The notes under the pieces: generated by a model
Seen by the model: only the letters and a program-made list of their open reading frames with translations
Told to the model about the DNA's origin: nothing
Databases searched by the model: none
Part shown: positions 45,332 to 46,951 of the stretch, in pieces
Position numbering within the stretch: position 1 is the stretch's first letter
Layout of the letters: each line of letters opens with the position of its first letter
Assembly: GCA_018883265.1 (NCBI GenBank)
Contig: VEQK01000002.1
Coordinates: 29,752 to 93,751 of the forward strand
Direction: 5' to 3'
DNA length: 64,000 bases
Source: Rhodocyclaceae bacterium
GTDB taxonomy: Bacteria; Pseudomonadota; Gammaproteobacteria; Burkholderiales; Rhodocyclaceae
Program-made: the position numbers and the translations under genes

Positions 45332-46258
45332 CTAGTGCAGTGTCTGGCTCTGGCGCGGCTCTGAATCTGAGGGTCGATGATCCGAGAAAAGCGCCAGCGC
45401 TTCTTCCGGGCTAAACCGGTATTCCTGATTGCTCAGTTCGTCGTGAATCACGACGGCGCCATGCTCGCGCAGAATGGCATCGATTTCGTTCTTGCCCAGG
45501 CTGCGCACCATGTTTCTCACTTTATCCCAATTCCGCTCGCCGGCATGATGCAGTGCCTGGCCCGGTGCCAGGCTGATCAGTTCCTCGGGGAATAATGTCG
45601 TGACCAACTGCGCAGGATCCAGTTGCAGGAGCTCGCGATCAGTCAGCGTGCCGAACAGATGGGTCAGGCGATTCCAGCCATCGGCATCGGCCTCGTCGGC
45701 ACTCGGCATCTTCTGCAGGAACAGAGCGGCAGCCTGCGTGTCATTTGCAGCAAGATAGAGCAGGGTGGGTTGTTGCTCGGATTGTTCGAGATAGTGACTG
45801 AAAGCCTCGGCTAATGACTGACCCACCAGAGGTACGAAGCTCTGCCATGGCGTGCTGAATTGCTGTGCGTCCAGTGTCATCATCAGGCGGCTGGCGCTAT
45901 CTTCGGCAGAACCCTCCCGGGTATTCAGGCACTGGAAATCGGGGTTTTGCAGTTGCGTCGTCAATGCCGGATCCCATTGCGCGGTGCCACGCAATCCCAG
46001 CTTGTCGGTGCAGTCCATGACCAGCAGCTTGATCGGTCCCGGGTCGCGCATCTGGAAGGTGAGCCGACCGGGGTGTTTGAGCTGGCCCGCCATCAGCGCC
46101 GTGACACTAGCCATTTCGCCAAGCATCCGGTTAACGGCCACCGGGTAGTTTCTGCCGGCAGTCAGTGCGCGATAGGTTTCGTCCAGGTGCACCCAGGCGC
46201 CACGAATAGCGAGTTCCGGAAAATGGAAGCGGACAAAGCGGTCGGTTTCGCGCAGCAT
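45332..46258 (-). CDS. hslO: Hsp33-family chaperone lacking the zinc-binding cysteines
   Basis: 308 residues of the Hsp33 fold. The N-terminal core is recognisable (FHFPELAIRGAWVHLDETY, GEMASVTALMAGQLKHPGRL, MDCTDKLGLRGTAQ). In normal Hsp33 the C-terminal domain has CxC and CxxC binding Zn as a redox switch. Here the first pair region reads SLAPGQALHHAGERNW and the second HDELSNQEYRF, so all four cysteines are gone while the flanking sequence (VRNMVRSLGKNEIDAILREHG) is kept. Only two cysteines remain, both in the N-terminal core. It follows the gamma-carbonic-anhydrase-like gene by 78 bp and converges on the oxidase. Confidence 0.92.
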   Translation of the reverse strand: MLRETDRFVRFHFPELAIRGAWVHLDETYRALTAGRNYPVAVNRMLGEMASVTALMAGQLKHPGRLTFQMRDPGPIKLLVMDCTDKLGLRGTAQWDPALTTQLQNPDFQCLNTREGSAEDSASRLMMTLDAQQFSTPWQSFVPLVGQSLAEAFSHYLEQSEQQPTLLYLAANDTQAAALFLQKMPSADEADADGWNRLTHLFGTLTDRELLQLDPAQLVTTLFPEELISLAPGQALHHAGERNWDKVRNMVRSLGKNEIDAILREHGAVVIHDELSNQEYRFSPEEALALFSDHRPSDSEPRQSQTLH

Positions 46259-46336: not shown

Positions 46337-46861
46337 TCAATCAATGGCTTTGAGATGTGTCCGGTAACGCTCGGCGTTCTGCACATAGCGGGCGGCGCTG
46401 TTTATCAGTCGCGCCACTTCCTCGTCGGTCAGCTCACGGACGACTTTACCCGGCGCACCCATGATCAGGGAGCGGGGCGGGTACACTTTCCGCTCGGGAA
46501 TCAGTGTCCCGGCGCCGACCAGACTGTGTGCGCCGATCACGGCATGATTCAGAATCGTCGTGCCGATGCCGATCAGGCTGCCCTGGCCGATCTGGCAGCC
46601 GTGCAGCATGACCTTGTGACCAATCGTGACATCCGCCTCCAGAATCAGCGGTGCGCCCGGGTCGGTGTGGAAAATGCAGCCATCCTGCACATTGCTGCGC
46701 GGGCCAATCACGATCGGCTCGTTATCGCCGCGCAGGACGGCGTTCCACCAGATTGATGCATGCTCGGCGCATTCGACACGACCGATCAGCACCGCATTGG
46801 GGGCGACCCAGGCGTTCGGGTCAATTCGGGGAATCCGGTCTTCCAGCTGATAGATACTCAT
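46337..46861 (-). CDS. Gamma carbonic anhydrase family protein (YrdA-like)
   Basis: 174 residues from MSIYQLEDRIPRIDPNAWVAPNA. Left-handed beta-helix of hexapeptide repeats with metal-ligand histidines in IFHTDPGAPLILEADVTIGHKVMLHGCQIG, the arrangement of gamma-class carbonic anhydrases, then a C-terminal helix (ELTDEEVARLINSAARYVQNAERY). Many YrdA-type members show no carbonic anhydrase activity, so the function is open. Divergent from rnm; probably co-transcribed with hslO downstream. Confidence 0.9.
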   Translation of the reverse strand: MSIYQLEDRIPRIDPNAWVAPNAVLIGRVECAEHASIWWNAVLRGDNEPIVIGPRSNVQDGCIFHTDPGAPLILEADVTIGHKVMLHGCQIGQGSLIGIGTTILNHAVIGAHSLVGAGTLIPERKVYPPRSLIMGAPGKVVRELTDEEVARLINSAARYVQNAERYRTHLKAID

Positions 46862-46951
46862 GCGGTGGAGCCAATCCAGTAAAATAGACGATTGCACATT
46901 TTATGCCGATCTCTCAGGCACATAAAGTCAACACAATCACGTACCGATTTC

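Follow-up and report, generated by a model that had tools for sequence, protein, structure and literature searches.

Hsp33 is the textbook example of a redox-switched chaperone. In the Escherichia coli protein, oxidation leads to the release of zinc and to the unfolding of both the switch domain and the linker, and linker unfolding is regarded as both a requirement and a sufficient trigger for activation (PMC4735815). The four cysteines of the family have been called absolutely conserved (PMC4735815) or fully conserved, with fewer than 10 out of 1579 sequences lacking the second of them (PMC7423844). The window considered here, i.e. the whole analysed stretch of 64,000 nucleotides from a Rhodocyclaceae bacterium (contig VEQK01000002.1), carries an hslO gene whose product features none of these cysteines at the expected positions. 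This raises the question of whether the protein is a genuine Hsp33, how widespread its peculiarity is, and by which means such a chaperone could be controlled.

The gene is located at 45332..46258 on the minus strand, where an open reading frame with an ATG start and 308 codons for amino acids has exactly these bounds. Its product matches the Pfam profile HSP33 (PF01430, cut-off 21.4 bits) with 185.1 bits (E 2.4e-54) over the complete profile (1-273 of 273), and its match in the PDB is E. coli Hsp33 (1i7f, E 2.8e-25). By contrast, it reaches only 143.7 bits against the NCBIfam HslO equivalog NF001033 and stays below the cut-off of 244, as do a two-cysteine relative (209.2) and another cysteine-less relative (184.8), whereas a canonical control passes with 277.1. 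The N-terminal client-binding domain (about residues 3-178; 45725..46252, minus strand) was delimited by alignment to Hsp33 of known structure, and its residues S140, V142, S160 and Q162 are invariant across Rhodocyclaceae Hsp33. It is followed by the linker (about residues 179-232; 45563..45724, minus strand), assigned by its invariant residues and low distance; since Q182, D193, W195, R197 and F223 are invariant among 111 Rhodocyclaceae sequences, the linker is regarded as present. The C-terminal part corresponds to the former zinc/redox-switch domain (about residues 233-292; 45383..45562, minus strand), an assignment that draws on the replaced cysteines, the constraint on the domain and a structural model. 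In summary, domain order, full Pfam match, N-terminal domain and linker are common to this protein and to canonical Hsp33 such as E. coli HslO and Bacillus subtilis Hsp33, and so may be the C-terminal fold as predicted by the model; the canonical proteins differ in possessing four zinc-binding cysteines and in the equivalog score. A gene for a hexapeptide-repeat (gamma-carbonic-anhydrase-like) protein, recognised by Pfam Hexapep, lies upstream on the same strand (46337..46897, minus strand), and this gene order is conserved in the genus (L032-L034, L036-L038).

In a multi-sequence alignment comprising the window protein, 110 further Rhodocyclaceae sequences and 70 sequences from other families of the order, E. 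coli C232, C234, C265 and C268 correspond to G240, R242, D273 and S276. The former CxC motif reads G240-E-R242 (45533..45541, minus strand) and the former CxxC motif D273-E-L-S276 (45431..45442, minus strand), so that the zinc cysteines which define a redox-regulated Hsp33 are missing from both. The only cysteines of the entire protein, C83 and C110, reside outside the switch domain, which would be zinc-free. A preliminary description of the locus had already pointed to the replacement of all four cysteines with the neighbouring residues kept in frame, and the two segments it named, QALHHAGERN and HDELSNQEYRF, are indeed found in the translation of the reading frame. It had also named a sequencing error in the C-terminal codons and a second, normal hslO as findings that would overturn this observation, and neither was encountered. 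The G-R-D-S state recurs in independent assemblies (L032/L038, L033/L036, L034 and L037), i.e. in four other sequences from the genus of the window or its closest kin, and the hslO sequence of L032 is identical to that of the congener G128. The genome of the window (96% complete) yields a single HSP33 match and no second hslO, as likewise observed for the congener G082 (2 contigs, 99% complete).

Absence of the full cysteine set is a property of the whole family. Hsp33 is present in 135 of the 151 Rhodocyclaceae genomes searched, and among the 111 sequences read, not one retains four cysteines: 54 possess exactly C232 and C268, six possess C232 only and 51 possess none, while C268 never occurs without C232. 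The position of C265 is occupied by Asp in 110 of these sequences and by Glu in the remaining one. Outside Rhodocyclaceae but within the order, 65 of the 70 sequences are canonical and five are of the two-cysteine type (L148, L149, L154, L156, L158). The canonical motif was further found in 96 of 99 sequences from wider class and phylum samples, which took in low-scoring matches on purpose and are not strictly random; about 95% of the Hsp33 sampled in the phylum outside Rhodocyclaceae are canonical. The loss, whose clade-wide extent the preliminary description proposed to check by alignment with betaproteobacterial HslO, applies to the family as a whole but not to its mostly canonical neighbours. 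A loss confined to the window is contradicted by the 111-sequence family alignment, and a loss throughout the Betaproteobacteria by the canonical sequences of the other families. The earlier proposal that this Hsp33 operates without the classical zinc/thiol switch and requires another control gains support and extends to all Rhodocyclaceae, since a family devoid of the full cysteine set must regulate Hsp33 in some other way.

Several observations accompany this distribution. Sixteen of the 151 family genomes, several of them nearly complete, are devoid of Hsp33, so that some members of the family can do without the gene. Two of the three non-canonical sequences in the class and phylum samples, L218 and L219 from other families of the class, feature two cysteines with Asn at the C265 position and are closest to the zinc-less clade or to one another, as might result from horizontal transfer or from an older subfamily. 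In L220, the first motif is a CxxC (NCVGC) in place of CxC, while the second CxxC is normal.

The two-cysteine form (C232, C268 and D265; e.g. L002, L154 and L158) shares clade, Asp and flanking pattern with the window protein, from which it differs in that one cysteine is left per motif, so that a disulfide or a partial metal site is still possible. In a tree inferred from the N-terminal domain and linker, with the C-terminal domain left out, the two-cysteine and cysteine-less sequences split together from canonical Hsp33 (support 100/96), and hslO of the window is best explained as a genuine Hsp33 that was inherited vertically in the betaproteobacterial lineage. A single origin of the cysteine-less state was rejected (monophyly, p-AU 1e-5). 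Bootstrap trees place five to six changes to this state, of which the starred branches alone force two, the exact number being uncertain. Alignment and tree show a stepwise loss of the zinc centre: in the simplest account, C234 and C265 disappeared once, with C265 giving way to Asp and C232 and C268 remaining, and the latter two subsequently went on several occasions, almost always as a pair, the genus of the window representing one such lineage. The paired loss suggests a joint role of C232 and C268 in the two-cysteine form, where they may act together as a disulfide or as shared ligands.

Despite the missing cysteines, the domain that once held zinc shows no decay; its constraint equals that of canonical Hsp33. 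Within the genus, dN amounts to 0.02-0.20 as compared to dS values of 0.5-2.2. The C/N divergence ratio, computed with the four cysteine sites excluded from the switch domain and at matched N-terminal distance, is 1.06-1.34 in cysteine-less and 1.02-1.21 in canonical sequences. D273, Y280, G255 and F291 are near-invariant in the former switch domain, and Asp at 273 remains fixed after loss of the remaining two cysteines. Position 238 holds Phe in 98% of four-cysteine sequences, Tyr, Trp or His in two-cysteine sequences and His in 86% of cysteine-less ones; together with D273, which is found in 98% of cysteine-less Hsp33, H238 is characteristic of this form, although its association with cysteine loss is not significant, the phylogenetic pairs being too few. 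Moreover, linker conservation in this clade exceeds that of canonical Hsp33 (mean distance 0.38 versus 0.55).

A model of the C-terminal part likewise predicts that the switch domain still folds. A full-length model was too poor to use (pLDDT 50), and a fragment of 72 residues (225-296), built from four similar sequences, reached a pLDDT of about 69-81 over its residues 21-70, the former CxC loop being of low confidence. In a structural comparison, this fragment matched Hsp33 switch domains best, namely those of 1vzy, B. subtilis Hsp33 (probability 1.00), 1xjh, the E. coli redox-switch domain, and 1vq0 (both 0.99), with E values of 0.026-0.16; for 1vzy and 1xjh, E was 0.026-0.13 and the TM score 0.57 by query length.

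The reading which we tentatively place first, at slightly less than even chances, is that the window protein is an Hsp33 that functions without zinc or thiols and is brought into its holdase state by stress that unfolds it, heat for example. Instead of zinc, normal packing together with hydrogen bonding, with Asp273 in a central and His238 in a customary role, would hold the switch domain, and heat or unfolding oxidants like HOCl would unfold this domain and the linker directly without any thiol-disulfide step. The resulting holdase would sense unfolding stress and not peroxide. This proposal is an analogy with two known cases. One is the algal Hsp33 of Chlamydomonas, a chloroplast protein. 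PMC7423844, with reference to Segal & Shapira 2015, describes it as having lost one cysteine together with zinc binding and as opening in response to mild heat or oxidation. Its zinc centre is broken too, but it differs in being eukaryotic and in the loss of one cysteine only, whereas two to four are lost in the bacterial Rhodocyclaceae clade with its fixed Asp. The other case is E. coli Hsp33 itself, which a single linker-destabilising mutation renders constitutively active (PMC4735815). As a counterpoint to a stress-opened holdase, the linker is more conserved in the clade and not looser, so that the protein could be stably closed.

Such a closed protein leads to the strongest rival, a permanently 'reduced-like' Hsp33, whose switch domain would remain folded even under oxidation and which would be specialised in binding and unfolding EF-Tu for degradation in place of serving as an oxidative holdase. 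EF-Tu unfoldase activity is a property of reduced E. coli Hsp33 and requires a folded redox-switch domain (PMC8614738), and the conservation of the domain, its predicted folding without zinc and the strongly conserved linker would all agree with this role. Nevertheless, the activity is known only from the zinc-bound E. coli protein, and we consider this explanation rather unlikely, at about one half of the weight given to the stress-opened holdase. Less likely still is a constitutively active holdase, in which zinc loss would leave switch domain and linker loose and the client surfaces always exposed. The E. coli linker mutant and the lack of every stabilising zinc ligand are in line with this idea, but a domain relieved of switching should decay, and the observed canonical level of constraint with its near-invariant residues renders permanent activity improbable.

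The remaining explanations carry even less weight. The preliminary description had read the two adjacent histidines in the first cysteine site as a hint at altered metal binding; however, H237 and H238 sit three and two residues upstream of the first cysteine position and do not occupy a ligand position. H237 is variable, being Tyr in one congener, while H238 is retained across the five genus sequences, and no conserved set of His, Asp or Glu replaces the four cysteines in the clade, which leaves this hint weak. A replacement metal site formed by His238, Asp273 and neighbouring residues could draw on the shift from Phe to His at position 238, the frequency of D273 and the presence of H278 in 76% of cysteine-less sequences, but H278 is replaced by Gln or Leu in the genus of the window and H272 by Asn in congeners. 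Since four conserved ligands are absent, D273 is fixed with or without remaining cysteines and the link between H238 and cysteine loss lacks significance, such a site is quite improbable. A relocated thiol switch is slightly more doubtful again. The codons of C110 (45929-45931) and the widely kept C83 (46010-46012), both on the minus strand, encode a possible new thiol pair, which would form an N-terminal redox pair in the genus of the window, where both residues occur in five of five sequences and C110 is otherwise found in one unrelated sequence of the family. Such a switch could not operate in the other cysteine-less lineages: C110 is absent from most of them, and three are devoid of cysteine altogether. 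Least credible is a decaying, functionless gene, as could be suspected from the long stem that leads to the genus in the Hsp33 phylogeny and from a Pfam score near the bottom of the family range; the low dN/dS largely refutes it, and reading frame and synteny are intact in all members of the genus.

With regard to the literature, no paper pairing Hsp33 with Rhodocyclaceae or Azoarcus was found in a search largely covering papers outside subscription journals, so an earlier notice is possible, and titles and abstracts of papers on Hsp33 and betaproteobacteria gave no pointer to a cysteine-less subfamily.

Taken together, a subfamily of Hsp33 in the whole of the Rhodocyclaceae and in parts of neighbouring families has probably abandoned both zinc and the sensing of redox state and would use its switch domain as a metal-free module, be it as a pure sensor of heat and unfolding or as a redox-immune EF-Tu unfoldase, with the two-cysteine intermediates and the repeated paired loss recording the steps. 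The lack of any full cysteine set, the intermediates and the several independent complete losses constitute a natural experiment. Rhodocyclaceae Hsp33 makes it testable whether the thiol switch, zinc or the mere unfolding of a domain is what counts for function, and also whether EF-Tu activity of the reduced state alone can maintain selection on hslO.
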